Positions 944 to 24,859 of a DNA stretch of 25,198 nucleotides are shown piece by piece (position 1 is the first letter of the stretch; the number at the start of each line of letters is the position of its first letter). The notes beneath the pieces were generated by a model. That model was not told the DNA's origin. It did no database searches and saw only the letters and a program-made list of their open reading frames with translations. Position numbers and translations under genes: made by a program. Source of the stretch: Nitrospirota bacterium (GTDB lineage: Bacteria > JACPQY01); the NCBI GenBank assembly GCA_016190245.1, contig JACPQY010000068.1:1-25198 (forward strand), given 5' to 3'.

Positions 944-2338
944 GTGGCCACGCCCATGCCCACGCCCGTCGCGGCGGACCTCAAGAAGTTTGCGGCCGAT
1001 CCGGCGCTGGCCGAGGCCAACCTCGAACGCTTCCTGGAAACCGGCGAGGAGGCGAGGTCGGCGTGGGATCGCGCGGGCGCGGAGGGACGGCGCCGCCTCG
1101 TGCGGATCCTCGGCTACGCGCAGCCGCTCGCGGGCTACCTCGTCCGCCATCCCGACTCGGCCTCGCTTCTGATCGACGCCAAGTTCTTCGACAAGGCTTC
1201 GCGGCCGGCGGACTGCGCCTCCCGGCTCCGCGAGCGTCTGGAACGCCGCCGACCGGGCCCTGAGCGCGAGCAGGAGCTGTTCCGCTTCAAGTACGACGAA
1301 CTCCTCCGGATCGCGGTGAAGGATCTGGAGGAGATCGGACCGTATGAGGCGATCCTGGCCGAGCTGTCGGCCCTGGCGGACGCGATCATCGGGGGCGTGC
1401 TGGAACAGACACGTCCGGACGCCGCCCGAGGGAATTCCCTCCGGCTCAGCGTGATCGCGCAGGGCAAGCTGGGGAGCGAGGAACTCAACTTTGCCTCCGA
1501 CGTGGATCTCCAATTCATCTACTCCGGCTCGGATCCCATGGCATCGCCGGCGCCCGAGCTGCACGAACCGGCCACCAAGTGGGCTCAGAAGATCGTCGAG
1601 TTGATGCAGCGCGACACGGAGGAAGGTTTCCTCTGGCGAGTGGATCTGGAGTTGCGGCCGGAAGGCATTTCAGGTCCCCTCGTCAACTCGGCCTACGCGG
1701 CGGAGCTCTACTATGAAACCTGGGGCCAGCCGTTCGAGCGGTTCGCGCTGCTGCGGGCTCGGCCCGCCGCGGGCGACGTGGAACTCGGGACGGGACTCGT
1801 TCAGGCCCTCGAACCTTTCATCTACAAGCGGTTTCTGAGCATGGCCGACGTTCAGTCCGTCAAGAAGATGAAAGACATGCACGCCGCCGAGCGCGAACAG
1901 CGCGGAAAATGGAACGTGAAAACCGGCGTCGGAGGGATTCGGGACATCGAGTTCTTGGTCCACGGCCACCAGATCCTGAACGGCGGAAAGATGCCTTTGC
2001 TTCGCACGCCCCACACGATCAAGGCGATGGAGGCTCTGGAGAAAGAGCAATTCCTCTCGCCGGGGGAGAAGCGCCAGTTGCGCGAGGCCTACATTTTCTT
2101 GCGCCGACTGGAGAACCATCTCCAGATGAGCGAGGAACAGCAGACGCATGCGCTCAAGTCCGCCCGGCCCGAGCGCGAGGTTGTGGCCCGGTCGCTGGGT
2201 TACGGGATGAAGAAGGGATCGAAATCCGAACACGCCTTGGACGACTTCGACGCGGACCTGCAGGTCTTCACGACCGTGTCCCGCGAGGCGTTCGAGCGAT
2301 TCCTCAGCGACTTCAAGACGGATGTGCAGGGGCCGTGA
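944..2338 (+). CDS. Half-length GlnE: glutamine synthetase deadenylylase-type domain only
   Basis: This 464-residue protein matches one half of the bifunctional glutamine-synthetase adenylyltransferase/deadenylylase GlnE, which is usually about 950 residues. The nucleotidyltransferase motif GKLGSEELNFASDVD is present with metal-binding aspartates D186 and D188. It is followed by the family blocks RVDLELRPEGISGPLV, GVGGIRDIEFLV and FLRRLENHLQ. These resemble the N-terminal (deadenylylating) half of E. coli GlnE more than the C-terminal half. The protein then stops, and no remnant of the second half is visible downstream. Start: GTG at 944; an in-frame ATG at 956 is possible. It lies directly upstream of the glnB-glnA operon, whose synthetase would be its substrate. 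The half-domain assignment comes from recalled motifs, not alignment. Specificity for glutamine synthetase is inferred from family and context. Confidence 0.85.
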   Translation: MATPMPTPVAADLKKFAADPALAEANLERFLETGEEARSAWDRAGAEGRRRLVRILGYAQPLAGYLVRHPDSASLLIDAKFFDKASRPADCASRLRERLERRRPGPEREQELFRFKYDELLRIAVKDLEEIGPYEAILAELSALADAIIGGVLEQTRPDAARGNSLRLSVIAQGKLGSEELNFASDVDLQFIYSGSDPMASPAPELHEPATKWAQKIVELMQRDTEEGFLWRVDLELRPEGISGPLVNSAYAAELYYETWGQPFERFALLRARPAAGDVELGTGLVQALEPFIYKRFLSMADVQSVKKMKDMHAAEREQRGKWNVKTGVGGIRDIEFLVHGHQILNGGKMPLLRTPHTIKAMEALEKEQFLSPGEKRQLREAYIFLRRLENHLQMSEEQQTHALKSARPEREVVARSLGYGMKKGSKSEHALDDFDADLQVFTTVSREAFERFLSDFKTDVQGP

Positions 2339-2365
2339 ACGGGACCGCACCGGACCGCGGTGGCA

Positions 2366-2459
2366 GGAGATCGCCGCGCCCCTTTCCGCCTATGGCGGAC
2401 TTGCGATGACGAAGAGAAGGCGTCATGGCGATCCGCCCAAGGGGCGGAGAAGCAATCCC
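2366..2459. repeat. Imperfect inverted-repeat element (REP/MITE-like)
   Basis: The left arm (about 2366-2410) ends in TTGCGATGAC. The right arm (about 2422-2459) starts with GTCATGGCGATCC and ends in AGCAATCCC. The left arm begins GGAGATCGCC. Read on the opposite strand it gives GTCATCGCAA followed later by GGCGATCTCC, so the two arms are imperfect inverted copies. The GTCATTGCGA...AAGCAATC vocabulary resembles a short dispersed repeat common in intergenic DNA of several phyla. It sits between the half-GlnE gene and the glnB promoter. Confidence 0.5.
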
Positions 2460-2509
2460 GGTGTGCGCCGGCCGCGGCTGTTGACCTCGTGCCATGGCGG
2501 CCCACATGA

Positions 2510-2526
2510 TGAACCATCGTGGTGCA
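2510..2526 (+). promoter_or_regulatory. NtrC-like enhancer site 1
   Basis: The sequence TGAACCA-TCG-TGGTGCA differs from the dyad TGCACCA-N3-TGGTGCA, typical of NtrC sites, at a single base. Its centre (2518) lies about 124 bases upstream of the transcription start predicted from the sigma54 promoter at 2616-2631, within the usual range for enhancers. Binding by NtrC is inferred; no ntrC gene is in the window. Confidence 0.65.
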
Positions 2527-2530
2527 ATGC

Positions 2531-2547
2531 TGCCCTCCACGGGTGCA
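2531..2547 (+). promoter_or_regulatory. NtrC-like enhancer site 2 (weaker)
   Basis: The dyad TGCCCTC-CAC-GGGTGCA matches the NtrC half-sites at four of seven and six of seven bases. Its centre (2539) is exactly 21 bases from that of site 1, about two helical turns, so two dimers would bind the same DNA face. The left half is weak, and the site could be a chance neighbour. Confidence 0.4.
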
Positions 2548-2615
2548 CAGAGGAATCCGGCGCCCAATCGCCGCGGAAAAATCGAATGATGGCGATACAT
2601 CAGGAATCACAACAT

Positions 2616-2631
2616 TGGCACTGCGCTTGCA
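2616..2631 (+). promoter_or_regulatory. Sigma54 (-24/-12) promoter of the glnB operon
   Basis: TGGCAC (2616-2621), five bases, then TTGCA (2627-2631) is a full match to the conserved -24 and -12 blocks of RpoN promoters, with the invariant GG and GC exactly 10 bases apart. The expected start is near 2642, leaving a leader of about 50 bases before the glnB ATG. With the NtrC-like sites upstream this predicts strong induction under nitrogen limitation. Confidence 0.9.
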
Positions 2632-2680
2632 CAGGGCCAAGCACAGTGGACGACATAGGAGCAACGCCCGGAAGAACTAA

Positions 2681-3031
<351 letters not shown>

Positions 3032-3115: not shown

Positions 3116-4531
3116 ATGACACCGAAGGAGGTCCTGAAATTCGCGAAGGAAAATGGCGCGAGGGCCTGTGACGTGAAGTTCTGCGACATGCTGGGCAAGT
3201 GGCAGCACTTCACCACGGGCATGTCGGAGATTTCCGAAGAGACGTTCGAGGAGGGCCTGGGATTTGACGGCTCCAGCATCCGTGGCTGGCAGGGCATCCA
3301 GGAGAGCGACATGCTCGTGATGCCTGACCCCAAGACCGCCGTGATGGATCCATTCTGCGCGGAGCCCACGCTCACGATGATTTGCGACATCCTGGATCCG
3401 GTCACCCGCAAACCCTACTCGCGCGATCCGCGCTACGTCGCCAAGAAAGCCATTCAATACCTGAAGAAGAGCGGGATCGGCGACGCCGCCTATTTCGGCC
3501 CGGAGCCCGAGTTCTTCATCTTCGACGGCGTCCGGTATGCCAGCGGCGTCCAGCACAGCTTCTACTACATCGACTCGCGCGAGGGGTGGTGGACGAGCGG
3601 CAGTGAGGAAGCCCCCTCCAACCTCGGGCACAAGCCCCGCTACAAGGAGGGCTATTTCCCGGTCTCTCCGAATGACACGCAGCAGGACATCCGCACGGAG
3701 ATGCTCCTCACCATGGAGAAGGTCGGGATCATCGTGGAGAAGCAGCACCACGAGGTGGCCACGGCCGGCCAGGCCGAAATCGACATGCGCTTCATGGACT
3801 TGGTCGAGATGGGCGACAAACTGATGTGGTTCAAGTACATCGTCAAGAACGTGGCGGCCAAGGCGGGCAAGACGGTGACCTTCATGCCCAAGCCCCTGTA
3901 CGGCGACAATGGATCGGGCATGCACACCCACCAGAGCATCTGGAAGGGCGGGAAGCCGCTGTTCGCGGGCGAGGGATACGCGGGGCTTTCGGAGCTCGGT
4001 CTCTCGTACATCGCGGGCATCATGAAACACGCCTACGCGCTGTGCGCGATCGTCGCGCCCACCGTCAATTCGTATCGGCGGTTGGTGCCCGGGTACGAGG
4101 CCCCCGTCAACATCGCCTACTCGGCCCGCAACCGCAGTGCCTGCTGCCGCATCCCGCTCTACAGCCCTTCTCCGAAGGCCAAGCGCGTCGAGGTTCGGTT
4201 CCCGGATCCCGCGTGCAATCCTTACCTCGCTTTTGCCGCGATGCTCATGGCGGGACTCGACGGCGTCGAGAAGAAGCTCAAGCCGGGCGAGCCGCTCGAC
4301 AAGAACCTCTACCACCTGCCGCCGCAGGAGGCGAAGAAGGTCAAGCAGCTCCCGGGCAGCCTGCCCGAGGCGCTCGCGGCCCTCGATGCGGACCACGACT
4401 TCCTCAAGAAGGGGGACGTGTTCACGGATGATCTCATCGAGGCTTGGACTTCCTGGAAGGTGGAGAACGAGATTGATCCGATCCGCCTCAAGCCGACGGC
4501 GATGGAGTTCGAGCTCTACTACGATGTTTGA
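3116..4531 (+). CDS. glnA: Glutamine synthetase, type I
   Basis: This enzyme makes glutamine from glutamate, ammonia and ATP as a cytoplasmic dodecamer. From ATG 3116 the protein has 471 residues, the usual GS-I length. An in-frame ATG at 3068 would add 16 Lys/Gly-rich residues and has a poorer ribosome site. Family blocks occur in order: [64 protein letters not shown] and [15 protein letters not shown]. The adenylylation loop [11 protein letters not shown] is present with the target tyrosine at residue 399 (E. coli Tyr397), so control by GlnE-type enzymes is expected. It is co-directional with glnB and shares its sigma54/NtrC-like promoter. The pair ACC in NRSACCRIP replaces residues usually Ser/Ile there, probably without effect. 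Confidence 0.97.
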
Positions 4532-4725: not shown

Positions 4726-5592
4726 ATGAAGGTACAGGTCTGTCCAAGAAGCAACCTCGGGAGGTTTGCGCTCGCGCTGGCGCTGGCGCTCACGGTGCCG
4801 TCGTTGGCCAAGGCCACGCCATCCACCACGTTCTGGGCTCCGTCCACGCCCTTCGTGCAACCGTACGGGTTGCTCCACATCACGTATGACACCTACTTCC
4901 TGGGGTCGGCCCTCTATCCCGTCGATACCGGCCTGGAGATGGGTGTGTTGCCCTTCGACAAGTTCCAGATGGAGGCCGGATTCGACTTCCTCTACCCCAC
5001 TCAGGATCCGAGCAAGGCGCCAAAGGTGAAGGGCCTGGCGCTGCCACTCCTTCTCAACGCCAAGGTCGGTTCCCCTGAAGGTGCGTTCGGGGACTGGTCT
5101 CCCGGCTGGTCGGCCGGCATCTTCGGCGTCGGATTCGAGGATGACGTGACCGACTACAACATCGTGCATTTCATGCTCGGCAAGACGTTCCCTGTGATCG
5201 GCAATCCCGAGGTCGGCTTCTACTACGGTCTGAACGACAAGCTTCTGATCGACAAGAACGGCGACAAGGAGCAGTTCGGCGTGATGGTCGGATGGTTCTC
5301 CCCTGCCATCGAGCTCAAGAAACCGTACATGGACAAGGTCATCTTGGCTGCCGACATCCAGACAGGCAAGAACGGGTTCGGAGCCGCCGGCGGCGGCGTC
5401 TACCTCTACTTTACGCCCACGATCAGTCTTCTCACGGGTCCGGTTTTCTTCCTCGAGAAGGATGTGCAGGCGCCCGTGGCGCTGTTCGGTGCTGACAAGA
5501 CCGGCGCGCTGGTTGCTGCCGACAAGCCCGGCATGGTCTGGACGATGCAGCTCGACATCGACATGGATCTGTTCACAAAGAAAGCCGAGTAG
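4726..5592 (+). CDS. Predicted outer-membrane beta-barrel protein of the ammonium operon
   Basis: This 288-residue protein begins with a clear Sec signal peptide: basic n-region, then an ALALALALTVPSLAKA core with cleavage after AKA at residue 30. The mature part alternates aromatic/hydrophobic and polar residues, with glycine-rich strands such as SAGIFGVGFEDD, EVGFYYGLND and FGAAGGGVYLYFTP, as in outer-membrane barrels. It has no other membrane helix and no cysteine in the mature part. It does not end in the usual C-terminal aromatic residue. A strong AAGGAGGT site (4713-4720) precedes ATG. It lies between glnA and two amt genes, 30 bases before the first. An inferred role is passage or capture of ammonium or a small nitrogen compound at the outer membrane; no specific family is recognised. 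Confidence 0.75.
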   Translation: MKVQVCPRSNLGRFALALALALTVPSLAKATPSTTFWAPSTPFVQPYGLLHITYDTYFLGSALYPVDTGLEMGVLPFDKFQMEAGFDFLYPTQDPSKAPKVKGLALPLLLNAKVGSPEGAFGDWSPGWSAGIFGVGFEDDVTDYNIVHFMLGKTFPVIGNPEVGFYYGLNDKLLIDKNGDKEQFGVMVGWFSPAIELKKPYMDKVILAADIQTGKNGFGAAGGGVYLYFTPTISLLTGPVFFLEKDVQAPVALFGADKTGALVAADKPGMVWTMQLDIDMDLFTKKAE

Positions 5593-5622: not shown

Positions 5623-7152
5623 ATGAATAGACTGAAGAAGTTCTTGAGCCCCGGGAGCCTGATCCCATTCGCGGGAACGCTCCTCTGGGCCGGATGGGCC
5701 ATCGCCCAGGAAGTGATGCCCGAGATGGCCGCACCCGTGGCCGAGGCGGCTCCGCCGGGGCCGCCCCCGCTCGACGCGCCCAAGGTGATGGCGGACACGC
5801 TGTGGACGCTCATCACGGCGATGCTGGTGTTCTGGATGAACGCGGGCTTCGCCCTCGTGGAATCCGGGCTGTGCCGCGCCAAGAACGCGGTCAACATCCT
5901 CTCGAAGAATGTGATCGTCTTCGCCATGACGTCGCTCGCCTTCCTTGTGGCGGGCTTCGGCATCATGTTCGGGGACGGCAACTCCCTCTTCGGGACGCAC
6001 GGCCTCTGGTTCCTCGGCGGAGCGGACAACAGCCCCTACACGGGCGACGCCTATCAGGGGGACTACAAGTCCATCGCGTGGACGGGAACTCCGCTCTGGG
6101 CGAAGTTCTTCTTTCAGCTCGTCTTCGCGGGGACGGCGGCCACGATCGTATCCGGCGCGGTGGCGGAGCGGATCAAGTACGCTTCGTTCATTATCTTCAC
6201 CGTCATCATGGGCATCTTCCTCTACCCCGTGACCGGGCACTGGATCTGGGGCGGCGGCTGGCTGGCCCAGAAGGGGATGTGGGACTTCGCCGGGTCCACC
6301 GTCGTCCACTCCGTGGGCGGCTGGGCGGCTCTGGTGGGGGCGATCCTCCTCGGCCCTCGGATCGGGAAGTACACCAAGGAAGGGAAGGTGAATCCGATCC
6401 CCGGTCACAACCTCGGGTTCGCGACGCTTGGCGTCATGATCCTGTGGCTCGGCTGGTTCGGATTCAACCCCGGCTCGACGATGGCGGCCGACTGGAACGC
6501 CATCTCGGGCATCGCCGTCACCACCAACACCGCGGCCGCCGCGGCGGGATTCGCGGCCACGATCGCGTCGTGGATCCTTTTCAAGAAGCCGGATCTCTCG
6601 ATGACGCTTAACGGCATCCTGGCCGGGCTCGTGGCGATCACGGCCCCGTGCGCCTTCGTGTCCGTGAAGGCGTCGGTCGCGATCGGCCTCGTGGCGGGGG
6701 TGCTGGTCGTCCTCTCCGTGTTGTTCTTCGACCGCGTGAAGGTGGACGATCCCGTGGGCGCGCTCTCCGTGCACTTGGTGAACGGGATCTGGGGAACCCT
6801 CTCCCTCGGGCTGTTCGGCTCCGACGCGTTCGTGGCGGGCCCCGGCATGGGCCTCTTCTACGGTGGAGGCTTCACGCTCCTGGGCGCCCAGTTCCTGGGC
6901 GTGGTCACCGTGGGCTTGTACACGGTGATCGTGGCCCTCATCGCGTGGGGTGTCGTTCGTGTCCTCACGGGCGGCCTGCGGGTGAGCGCGGAGGAGGAAC
7001 AGGAAGGTCTGGATCTGGGCGAGCACGGTCAGGCGTGCTACCCGGATTTCGCCACGCACCAGATGTCCGGCATCGGCCTGGAGGAAGACGAGCCGAAATC
7101 CGAGCGGCGAGCCGCCGGAGCGCCGGTCGCAAGACCCGTCCACCAGACCTGA
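5623..7152 (+). CDS. amt: Ammonium transporter (Amt family), first copy
   Basis: This 509-residue inner-membrane channel for ammonium has an N-terminal signal sequence ending near AIAQ (as E. coli AmtB also has one), a short Pro/Ala-rich segment, and then about 11 membrane helices. Conserved pore residues are visible: D221 in DFAGSTVVHS, the twin histidines H229 and H384 (in LSVHLVNG), GAVAERIKY, and WFGFNPGST. The C-terminal cytoplasmic part holds the AEEEQEGLDLGEHG motif, the region that couples to PII (GlnK). A good AGGAGGTGA site precedes the ATG. It is followed by a hairpin and a second amt. The last 45 or so residues (EEDEPKSERRAAG and on) are a charged tail beyond the usual end, of unknown use. 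Confidence 0.95.
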   Translation: MNRLKKFLSPGSLIPFAGTLLWAGWAIAQEVMPEMAAPVAEAAPPGPPPLDAPKVMADTLWTLITAMLVFWMNAGFALVESGLCRAKNAVNILSKNVIVFAMTSLAFLVAGFGIMFGDGNSLFGTHGLWFLGGADNSPYTGDAYQGDYKSIAWTGTPLWAKFFFQLVFAGTAATIVSGAVAERIKYASFIIFTVIMGIFLYPVTGHWIWGGGWLAQKGMWDFAGSTVVHSVGGWAALVGAILLGPRIGKYTKEGKVNPIPGHNLGFATLGVMILWLGWFGFNPGSTMAADWNAISGIAVTTNTAAAAAGFAATIASWILFKKPDLSMTLNGILAGLVAITAPCAFVSVKASVAIGLVAGVLVVLSVLFFDRVKVDDPVGALSVHLVNGIWGTLSLGLFGSDAFVAGPGMGLFYGGGFTLLGAQFLGVVTVGLYTVIVALIAWGVVRVLTGGLRVSAEEEQEGLDLGEHGQACYPDFATHQMSGIGLEEDEPKSERRAAGAPVARPVHQT

Positions 7153-7238: not shown

Positions 7239-8744
7239 ATGGAGAAGTTGCATATGCGGATGAACACGGGAGGTGTGGCCGCGCTGGCGCTGCTCGTCCT
7301 GGCGGTGGTGTTGGCGGGATGCAGCGTCTCGGCTCAGGAGGGGATGCAAGAGGCCCCTCCGACGGTGGCCGTGGAGCCCGCCAGCGCACCGCGGTCGGAT
7401 CTCGATCAACGCGTGGCGGATCTCGAAGCCTACGTGAACAACACGGGGCGCGGAGCCGACGCGGCCGGGTCCGGCCTCACCTCGAAGGTGGCGGGAGCGG
7501 GCCCCGGGCACAATGCATGGCTGATGACGGCCTCGGCGCTTGTCCTGTTCATGACCCTGCCGGGCCTCGCGCTTTTCTACGGCGGCTTGGTGCGCGCGAA
7601 GAACGTCCTCTCCGTTCTGGCCCAGTGCCTGGGGATCGCGGGGCTTGTCACCATCCTCTGGTGGGTGGTCGGCTACAGCTTGGTCTTCGCGCCAGGTGGC
7701 TCGATCCTGGGCGGGTTCCAGCACGCGTTTCTCAACGGCGTGGATTCCAATCCCAACACGAACTACGCCTACTGGGTCTCTCACAATGTCTTTTCGATGT
7801 ACCAGCTCATGTTCGCCATCATCACGCCGGCGCTCATCATCGGCGCGATCGCAGAACGCATGAAGTTCGGGGCTGTCCTCCTCTTCGTGGGCCTGTGGAT
7901 GTTCATCGTGTACTTCCCGCTCGCCCACATGGTTTGGGGCATCACCGGTCTCATGAATGGAGTCTGGAACGCGGATGCGGGCATTAAGGCGATCGATTTT
8001 GCGGGAGGGACCGTCGTCCATATGTCATCGGGATGGTCGGCGCTCATCCTGTGTCTCCTCGTGGGTCGGCGCGTCGGCTTCGGCAGGGAGCCGATGCCCC
8101 CGCACAGCATGGTCTTGTGCATGATCGGCACGGGGATGTTGTGGGTCGGCTGGTACGGGTTCAACGCGGGCAGCGCCGTGGCGGCCGACGGGATCGCGGC
8201 CAATGCCTTCACTACGACGACCATCGCGACGGCGGTGGCGTCCTTCAGTTGGGCCGCCGCGGAGTGGCTTCTCAAGGGCAGGCCGAGCGTACTCGGCTTT
8301 TGCTCCGGGGCGGTGGCGGGACTCGTGGTCATCACCCCCGGCTGCGGGTTCGTGGCGCCTTCGTCCGCCGTCCCCATCGGCGTGCTGGCCGGCTTGGTCC
8401 CGTTCTTCGCCTGCTACAAGGTGAAGTCCTGGCTGGGGTATGACGACGCCTTGGACACTTTCGGTGTGCACGCCGTGGGCGGGACGCTCGGCGCGTTCCT
8501 TACGGGCGTGTTCGCGACGGCGGATGTAAACGCGAACCTCCTCACCAACCTGAAGGGGATCGTGGGAAGCACGTTGTGGCAGGAGCAATTGAAAGCCATC
8601 GGGCTGACGTTGGTGCTCGCCGTGGTGGGCACCATCGTGATCGGGTTGATTGTGCGCGCGGTGGTGGGATTGCGCCCCGCCGAGGAGATTGAGCGGCAGG
8701 GCCTCGACATCGCGGAGCACGGGGAAACGGGGTACCACGTGTAG
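7239..8744 (+). CDS. amt: Ammonium transporter (AmtB-like), second copy, with lipobox-type leader
   Basis: This 501-residue Amt protein is closer to E. coli AmtB than the first copy, with blocks LFMTLPGLALFYGGLVR, AHMVWG and WYGFNAGSAVAA. Pore residues D253, H261 (TVVHMSS) and H411 (FGVHAVGG) are present, and the C-terminus carries EEIERQGLDIAEHGETGYHV. The leader is odd: a basic start, a hydrophobic core and then VVLAGCSVS, a perfect lipobox with Cys28, predicting lipoprotein processing. A periplasmic segment with a short heptad-like stretch (LDQRVADLEAYVNN) follows before helix 1. The GAGGAGG site (7228-7234) supports ATG 7239. It probably shares the glnB promoter by read-through. Lipidation is inferred from the motif only. 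Confidence 0.95.
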   Translation: MEKLHMRMNTGGVAALALLVLAVVLAGCSVSAQEGMQEAPPTVAVEPASAPRSDLDQRVADLEAYVNNTGRGADAAGSGLTSKVAGAGPGHNAWLMTASALVLFMTLPGLALFYGGLVRAKNVLSVLAQCLGIAGLVTILWWVVGYSLVFAPGGSILGGFQHAFLNGVDSNPNTNYAYWVSHNVFSMYQLMFAIITPALIIGAIAERMKFGAVLLFVGLWMFIVYFPLAHMVWGITGLMNGVWNADAGIKAIDFAGGTVVHMSSGWSALILCLLVGRRVGFGREPMPPHSMVLCMIGTGMLWVGWYGFNAGSAVAADGIAANAFTTTTIATAVASFSWAAAEWLLKGRPSVLGFCSGAVAGLVVITPGCGFVAPSSAVPIGVLAGLVPFFACYKVKSWLGYDDALDTFGVHAVGGTLGAFLTGVFATADVNANLLTNLKGIVGSTLWQEQLKAIGLTLVLAVVGTIVIGLIVRAVVGLRPAEEIERQGLDIAEHGETGYHV

Positions 8745-9497: not shown

Positions 9498-10028
9498 TCA
9501 GTGGATCGGTGTATCTTCTCCCGTCAGGAACTGCTCCAGGCCCACGGACTTCTCGCCCACCTTGAGCATGATCCCGTCGCCGACGACCACCTGCTCCACG
9601 GGGAGCTCGTGCTCGGCGAGGTGGGCCTGAATATCGGTCGGGCCGGAAAGCCAGACCGTTTCCTGGCACAATTTGCAATGGAAGTACCCGCGGTGGACCG
9701 CCTTCTCGATCTTGCCTTCCAGCGCCTGCGCGACGATCCCGCTCCAGAAACGCAGGCCATCCTTCCGGGACATCCTGTGCGTCTCCACGTCCGCGTAGCC
9801 GGATTCCCAGTCCACTACAAGGGTGGAAGTGTCGCGATTCGTCAGCGCCTCGATCGCGATCTTATCCGGGCCCTGCTCTCGGACGTGAAGCTCGACGTTC
9901 TCGCCCTCCTCGTCCTGGGCTTGGCACCAGTTGATGAGTTCCACAAGCTCCCACCTCTTGAGGTTTCGGAGGGACTTGTAGGGGGAGCTGTGCTCCATCA
10001 ATCTCTCGTTTCCGCCAACCTGTCCCAT
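9498..10028 (-). CDS. Hypothetical protein with a C2H2-type zinc-finger motif, sigma54-controlled
   Basis: I do not recognise this family. The start chosen, ATG at 10028, follows AGGAGG by five bases and gives 176 residues; an ATG at 10073 in the same frame lacks a ribosome site. The first 60 residues are charged and helix-rich (LRNLKRWELVELINWCQAQDEE). The middle holds predicted strands (TSTLVVDWESGYADVETH). Residues 118-140 read C-x2-C-x14-H-x3-H, a C2H2-like zinc-binding pattern, followed by a strand-rich end (VEQVVVGDGIMLKVGEK). It stands alone with its own terminator and a perfect sigma54 promoter about 75 bases upstream of the start. The context suggests a stress- or nutrient-induced DNA-, RNA- or protein-binding adaptor. 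Function is not known. Confidence 0.75.
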   Translation of the reverse strand: MGQVGGNERLMEHSSPYKSLRNLKRWELVELINWCQAQDEEGENVELHVREQGPDKIAIEALTNRDTSTLVVDWESGYADVETHRMSRKDGLRFWSGIVAQALEGKIEKAVHRGYFHCKLCQETVWLSGPTDIQAHLAEHELPVEQVVVGDGIMLKVGEKSVGLEQFLTGEDTPIH

Positions 10029-10113
10029 CTTCGCCTCCTCTCCCGATTCCCTCGGGGCTTCGCGGGCATCCACTGCCCTTCTCTGACCGTCCCTTGGCCT
10101 CTACATGGGTAAA

Positions 10114-10129
10114 AGCAATCGCCGTGCCA
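10114..10129 (-). promoter_or_regulatory. Sigma54 promoter of the zinc-finger gene
   Basis: On the minus strand TGGCAC-GGCGA-TTGCT is a full match to the extended RpoN consensus TGGCACGR-N3-TTGCW. The invariant GG and GC have the required 10-base spacing. The predicted start is near 10103, giving a leader of about 75 bases that includes the AGGAGG site. Confidence 0.88.
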
Positions 10130-23257: not shown

Positions 23258-24859
23258 TCAGTGCGGCCGGCGCATCAGGCCGTGCTTGTGGAGGAGGCGG
23301 TAGAACGTCGAGCGCGGCAGTCCGGACAGCTTGGCGGCCTGGCTCACGTTCTCGCCCACCGACTTGAGCACCTCTTCGAGGTAGGGGCGGCCGAAGAGGC
23401 CGATCCACCGTTCCTTCGCGGTGTGCCACGGCTGCCGCGCGAGTTGGCGAATCGCGGTGTGGAGCATGCCCCACCCCTTGGCATCGGCGTCCAGACTGGA
23501 ACGAGGTTGAGTCACTTTCGGCGACAGCAGGTCGGGAATCAAGATGGGCTCAGCGCCGGACAGGATCACGAGGCGCTCGATCTCGTGCTCCAATTCCCGG
23601 ACGTTGCCGGGCCACGTGTAGTTCATCATGAGACGAAGCGTCTCGGGATGCAGTGCTTTGGGTCGGCCGGTCCCCGCCAGGCGGGCGAGGAAATGCTCCG
23701 CAAGCTGGGGCAGATCCTCGATTCGTTCCCGCAGGGGCGGAAGCGCGACGGCCACCGCGTTCAACGCTTCATGAAGCTCGGGGTTGATGCGCCCTTCCTT
23801 CACGAGCTCTGCCGGATCCCGGCGCGTCGCCGCGACCACGCGGACGTTGGCCTGACGGCGATCCGTTCCGCCGGCCGGATGGAAGGTGCCGTCCTCGATG
23901 AACTGAAGGAGTTTCGCCTGGAGGCTGGGAGGGATATCCCCCAGTTCGTCGAGGTAGAGGGTGCCCGCCTCCGCGGCCTCCAGGGCGCCCGGGCTGTGAG
24001 TCGCGGCGCCTCCTGCCGTTCCGGTCGCGCGACCAAACACCTCGGCATCGAGCACGGCCTCGCCGAGCGAGGCGCAGCTCTGCACCAAGAAGGCCCTTCC
24101 GGAGCGGGGCCCACCGTGGTGAAGAATACGGGCCACCAGTCTCTTCCCTGTGCCGCGCTCACCCACGATCAGGACGGGCACGTCGGACGTCGCCAGTCTC
24201 TCGGCGAGGCGTGCGACCTGTTCCACAGCCGAACTCCGGCCGACGAGGCGGGGGTCACCTGAGTCTCTGTTCCGCTGGTCGGATAGCACGGCGATTCTTC
24301 GCTCGCGTTCCTGGAGTTCCCCCAGGTGCGCAATGGCTTCCCCGATCACCATCGAGACCAGCCCACGCAGTCGGCCGACGTCTTCGGGCGAGAGGGCGCG
24401 GCCCTCGGCGGCTTGACCGGTGAGCGATCCCGCCGGGAGTTCGAGTTCCAGCTCGAGGGTAGTCAATCCGTGCCCATCGGCCTCGCTACCCCGATCCCGC
24501 CTGATCCCGTCGGCCAAGATGAAGCCGAGTGTCTTCTCCCCCTGGCGAACGGGGAGCACGAAGTGACGAAGTCCTGCCCGGCAGCTTCCCTCGAAGCCGT
24601 CAGAATCCGCCCCCGCAGGCTCGATCGAGCCTTCCAAGGCGCGTACGTAGCCGCCTTTCAGAGCCGCCAGGCAGTGGACGTGGCCTTTTGAGGTGCCGAG
24701 GATGGAACCGCACAGGGGAGTGGGGGCGGGAAGGCGATCAAGATGGGGCGCAAGAAGTGCTCCGTTCGCGTCCATGACGAGGATTTCCACTCCCCACCAT
24801 TCGCGGACGAGTTCACGTAAGTTATTGACAACACTTAGTTTACAAAGATCAACCAACAC
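23258..24859 (-). CDS. PocR-domain regulator resembling sigma54 activators but with degenerate GAFTGA loop
   Basis: This 533-residue protein has three parts. A PocR-type sensor (about 10-120) carries cysteines C50, C63 and C93. An AAA+ domain keeps Walker A GERGTGKR (K239), Walker B LYLDELGD (D304, E305) and WPGNVRELEHEIER. A Fis-type helix-turn-helix (NVSQAAKLSGLPRSTFYRLL) ends the protein. Key sigma54-activator residues are lost. The GAFTGA loop reads GTAGGA (280-285). The FRxDLYYRLN arginine-finger segment reads INPELHEALN (358-367), with N359 and A365 in place of both arginines. It probably binds ATP and DNA but may not remodel sigma54 polymerase, perhaps acting on sigma70 promoters or as a repressor. 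The start GTG 24859 lacks a ribosome site and sits at the predicted transcription start. Confidence 0.9.
   Translation of the reverse strand: MLVDLCKLSVVNNLRELVREWWGVEILVMDANGALLAPHLDRLPAPTPLCGSILGTSKGHVHCLAALKGGYVRALEGSIEPAGADSDGFEGSCRAGLRHFVLPVRQGEKTLGFILADGIRRDRGSEADGHGLTTLELELELPAGSLTGQAAEGRALSPEDVGRLRGLVSMVIGEAIAHLGELQERERRIAVLSDQRNRDSGDPRLVGRSSAVEQVARLAERLATSDVPVLIVGERGTGKRLVARILHHGGPRSGRAFLVQSCASLGEAVLDAEVFGRATGTAGGAATHSPGALEAAEAGTLYLDELGDIPPSLQAKLLQFIEDGTFHPAGGTDRRQANVRVVAATRRDPAELVKEGRINPELHEALNAVAVALPPLRERIEDLPQLAEHFLARLAGTGRPKALHPETLRLMMNYTWPGNVRELEHEIERLVILSGAEPILIPDLLSPKVTQPRSSLDADAKGWGMLHTAIRQLARQPWHTAKERWIGLFGRPYLEEVLKSVGENVSQAAKLSGLPRSTFYRLLHKHGLMRRPH

Follow-up and report, generated by a model that had tools for sequence, protein, structure and literature searches.

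GlnE modifies glutamine synthetase (GS) in both directions: its C-terminal domain AMPylates the enzyme, its N-terminal domain deAMPylates it, and a central regulatory domain joins the two (PMC12409994). A 1997 paper by Jaggi et al., cited in PMC12409994, describes in its title the signalling between the opposing E. coli activities as intramolecular. In engineered diazotrophs, AT domains work on their own (PMC9249168). The locus described here shares with E. coli GlnE (b3053, 946 aa; structures 1v4a and 3k7d) the two homologous halves, the metal aspartates, the GlnB, GlnD and GlnA partners, and the adenylylation tyrosine, but its halves are separate proteins encoded by unlinked genes, and the span matching the central regulatory region appears short. 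Engineered unidirectional adenylyltransferases, AT-only truncations of GlnE (PMC9249168), likewise provide a free AT half acting on GS without AR; those truncations are laboratory-made and have no AR partner, whereas here both halves are natural, separate genes. In GlnD, the PII uridylyltransferase, a related nucleotidyltransferase and helical domain (PF08335) are combined with HD and ACT domains; this genome encodes GlnD separately, as a protein of 870 aa. Literature searches covering part of the literature returned no description of a naturally split GlnE, which is weak evidence of novelty.

The gene of interest, glnE-N, lies at positions 944–2338 (+ strand; 464 aa, GTG start) of the window, by which we mean the whole 25,198-nt stretch of DNA that was analyzed. 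Its product has single Pfam matches to GlnE (PF03710, residues 51–283, E = 6e-50, 170.4 bits against a cut-off of 24) and to GlnD_UR_UTase (PF08335, residues 312–432, E = 3.5e-24, 85.9 bits against a cut-off of 21). It covers only residues 145–436 of the 946-residue NCBIfam GlnE model and scores 269.8 bits against a cut-off of 487, as expected of half a protein. The nearest solved structure is the E. coli AT-N domain (1v4a, E = 2.1e-52), with AT-C (3k7d, E = 1.9e-28) a weaker match. These results agree with the initial annotation, made from the sequence alone, which had recognized here half a GlnE comprising a nucleotidyltransferase and a helical domain, with its metal aspartates kept; three such residues, D186, D188 and D234, align with E. 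coli D173, D175 and D223. The residues that separate the two halves are purely of the N type in the window protein, which has the arginine of the GGIR(E/D)IEF motif found in all 29 fused N halves and in 0 of 29 fused C halves. By its sequence, the window gene is a complete N-terminal half of GlnE, of the AMP-removing type.

The initial annotation had offered, as the first of several options, that an adenylylating half is encoded elsewhere, and this half exists. In the window's own assembly (a draft of 86 contigs with 84.8% completeness and a contamination estimate of 0.84%), PF03710 has three matching places: the window gene, the nucleotidyltransferase domain of GlnD on contig C10, and a second half-GlnE on contig C22 (match at C22:15014–15508, E = 1.7e-29). 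This gene, glnE-C, spans G000:C22:14492–15889 (L004:3493–4890, minus strand of L004) and encodes a 465-aa protein of the adenylylating type, whose nearest structure is AT-C (3k7d). Its aspartates D210, D212 and D249 align with E. coli D701, D703 and D752, and valine occupies the position of the diagnostic arginine of GGIREIEF. The catalytic aspartates are thus complete in both halves, which are not joined in one polypeptide but occur as proteins of 464 and 465 aa from different contigs. A tRNA-Arg (tcg) gene at L004:5080–5155 (− strand) lies 189 bp upstream of the C22 half and is a possible insertion site.

The canonical partners of the cascade are all present. GlnD on C10 is complete, with GlnD-family and ACT matches. 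The single PII match in the genome is glnB of the window (2693–3031, + strand; Pfam and NCBIfam), which has Tyr51. The genome encodes two GS-family proteins, and the sole type I GS is glnA of the window (3116–4531, + strand, in a frame open from 3068; Pfam and NCBIfam). GlnA keeps its target tyrosine, as the initial annotation had stated: numbered from the ATG at 3116, which AGGAGG precedes, it is Tyr399 (DKNLYHLPP, codon 4310–4312). The second GS-family protein has DAYTARDVPH in place of DKNLYHLPP, which makes the window GlnA the evident substrate. That glnE-N stands alone at its locus might suggest a single-domain enzyme that performs both jobs or acts on a target other than GlnA, readings that the initial annotation had also raised. 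Such an enzyme is improbable in a genome where a C half to match it and the whole PII/GlnD/GlnA cascade are encoded, for a gene that adjoins glnB-glnA both here and in a related genome (G001, below) and whose residues are purely N type; given the C22 half, these readings are not needed. We conclude that GlnE is very probably divided here between two proteins from unlinked loci, of which the window protein is the deadenylylating half.

To place the two proteins, we constructed a maximum likelihood tree of 75 half-domains of GlnE. The window protein groups with all the fused N halves in one clade (support 100/98), where its sister is the G001 N half (100/100); the C22 protein is placed outside that clade, with the G001 C half as its sister (100/100). 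Together with the N-type residues and the AT-N structural match, this upholds the earlier assignment, from motifs, to the deadenylylase-type half. Membership in a single-domain family unrelated to GS control is ruled out by the same clustering with GlnE N halves. The tree is not perfectly clean, as the N clade also takes in the C half of one fused protein, that of L118, next to the N half of that protein. In this GlnE (L118:1933–4935, − strand; genome G342), the protein's own two halves pair with each other (99/99) and not with the N and C halves of other proteins, as if homogenised or separately duplicated.

Because the genome is a draft of many contigs, one could suppose that a single fused glnE was interrupted artificially, through a frameshift or the misjoining of a contig, yet the arrangement of both genes makes such an artefact highly improbable. 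The N gene is interior to its contig, and between it and the glnB that comes next there is no remnant of a C half; the C gene is interior too, at 14.5–15.9 kb of a 44.7-kb contig; and the separately assembled G001 likewise has two genes. A frameshift near 2338 was considered specifically and rejected: when both C halves were compared by tblastn with window positions 2300–2800, only chance matches were obtained (best E = 4.8), and in the same search the N half recovered its own tail. The draft state of the assembly, with its nonzero contamination estimate, likewise leaves room for the C22 half to derive from a foreign organism, but the chance of this is very slight. In addition to its sister relationship with the G001 C half, C22 has a G+C content of 64.6%, like the window, and a tetranucleotide correlation with it of 0.78 (0.67 for the halves of the window against each other), and the genes flanking the C22 half have G001 homologues at 64% and 34% identity. 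The missing part of the draft could possibly hold an additional, fused GlnE.

G001, the only other genome of the same phylum in the comparison, bears on the history of the split. Its locus carries, on one strand, glnE-N (478 aa), glnE-C (454 aa), glnB and glnA, with the two halves 104 bp apart, so that the window order is the G001 order minus glnE-C. In the window, the site occupied by glnE-C in G001 is a 354-bp spacer between glnE-N and glnB (2339–2692, + strand), in which tblastn and blastn recovered no trace of a C half. Since the halves are adjacent upstream of glnB in G001, the lineage of the window most likely split GlnE first and moved the C half away later. Under this scenario, fission of a fused GlnE in the ancestor of the window and G001 family would have given the order glnE-N, glnE-C, glnB, glnA, and glnE-C would then have moved beside the tRNA-Arg gene in the window lineage. 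In G001, the homologues of the genes flanking the C22 half are on different contigs and so do not reveal the site as it was before the C half arrived. Identity to G001 is 41% for the C half, 59% for the N half, 79% for GlnA and 85% for GlnB; the faster evolution of the C half could reflect relaxed constraint, a point against the reading of two working halves. Short palindromic sequences in the spacer between the G001 halves (L036:8036–8139) resemble an intergenic repeat element.

Downstream of glnA, the window encodes a 288-aa protein (4726–5592, + strand) with no Pfam match, in whose place G001 has a gene for 359 aa, and two ammonium transporters, amt 1 (5623–7152, + strand; PF00909, E = 2.6e-116) and amt 2 (7239–8744, + strand; PF00909, E = 3.8e-105); past its glnA, G001 has large open reading frames where these three genes lie in the window. 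An exact match to the sigma-54 (−24/−12) type promoter consensus, TGGCAC-N5-TTGC, is found upstream of glnB at 2616–2630 (+ strand), and G001 has an exact match in the corresponding position upstream of its own glnB (L036:6514–6528, − strand). As the match in the window lies downstream of glnE-N, glnB-glnA may be nitrogen-regulated apart from glnE-N, to judge from the promoter consensus. A second exact TGGCAC-N5-TTGC match occurs in the window at 10115–10129 (− strand), just upstream of an open reading frame for a 191-aa protein (9498–10073, − strand). Elsewhere in the window, a 533-aa open reading frame (23258–24859, − strand) resembles a sigma-54-dependent activator, with ATPase and helix-turn-helix regions in its translation as read by eye.

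We propose that, once GlnD has uridylylated PII, the window protein (AR) would phosphorolytically remove the AMP on Tyr399 of the neighbouring GlnA, and that the C22 protein (AT) would add AMP at high glutamine with unmodified PII. The activities, the PII control and the assembly of the halves are all predicted from sequence, and the halves may work separately, as free enzymes under opposite regulation, or together in a non-covalent pair. One form of the latter, in which the window and C22 proteins bind to rebuild a GlnE-like heterodimer whose regulation is still coupled, as in the fused enzyme, would fit the retention of full nucleotidyltransferase and helical domains in both halves and the fact that fused GlnE is the common state. 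We consider it rather doubtful, given that the halves are unlinked both here and in one other phylum and that the motif-to-motif coding length is about 476–488 residues, against roughly 504–550 in most fused proteins, which may mean that some of the linker has been lost. Three fused proteins are equally short between the motifs (453–490 residues), and the heads of the C halves, which are shorter than in E. coli GlnE, are matched in shortness by some fused proteins. Whether free or paired, natural separate halves provide a clean test of the need for intramolecular coupling, as each can be assayed alone with PII, PII-UMP and glutamine. They would also be ready-made one-way modifiers of GS, comparable to those engineered for ammonia release by nitrogen-fixing bacteria (PMC9249168).

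Surveying 389 genomes from throughout the domain places this arrangement in a broader context, with counts taken from the matches listed and exceptions representing a lower bound. Among these matches, most GlnE proteins are one long frame of about 880–1270 aa, and separate frames away from contig ends occur at least in families f1 (that of the window), f93, f108 and f254. Each of the 16 genomes in the G108 phylum has a GlnE match, and 15 of them encode two halves that lie on separate contigs (in G108 itself, contigs of 2.87 Mb and 0.50 Mb); the exception is a draft, G408, with one half only. G134, whose halves are on two contigs, is at most a candidate split. Two adjacent frames are found in three genomes of the G093 phylum, where G332 has one frame of 1005 aa, and in two genomes of the G363 order, where two others have single frames (814 and 885 aa). 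The apparent splits in G200 and G045 fall at contig ends and were rejected.

The simplest reading of this distribution is that GlnE fission occurred more than once. Repeated fusion instead of fission is possible, and the tree of half-domains cannot strictly polarise the two. We suggest, tentatively and at somewhat less than even odds, that fission is recurrent and selected and would uncouple AMP addition from removal and let the halves be independently expressed and sensed via PII or glutamine, leaving the GS switch differently wired in several phyla.

Several of the surveyed halves have features of their own. A lone C-type half of 497 aa in G205 (L101:5791–7284, + strand) is the single GlnE match, with no N half, in a genome of 9.2 Mb that is 93% complete. 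The C-type halves of the G108 and G093 groups (L095:5018–7354, − strand, and L092:5190–7841, + strand) have a long N-terminal extension; that of the G108 protein matched none of the solved structures. In these C-type halves, glutamate replaces the second metal aspartate, and the L092 extension has a weak, sub-threshold ACT-like match.
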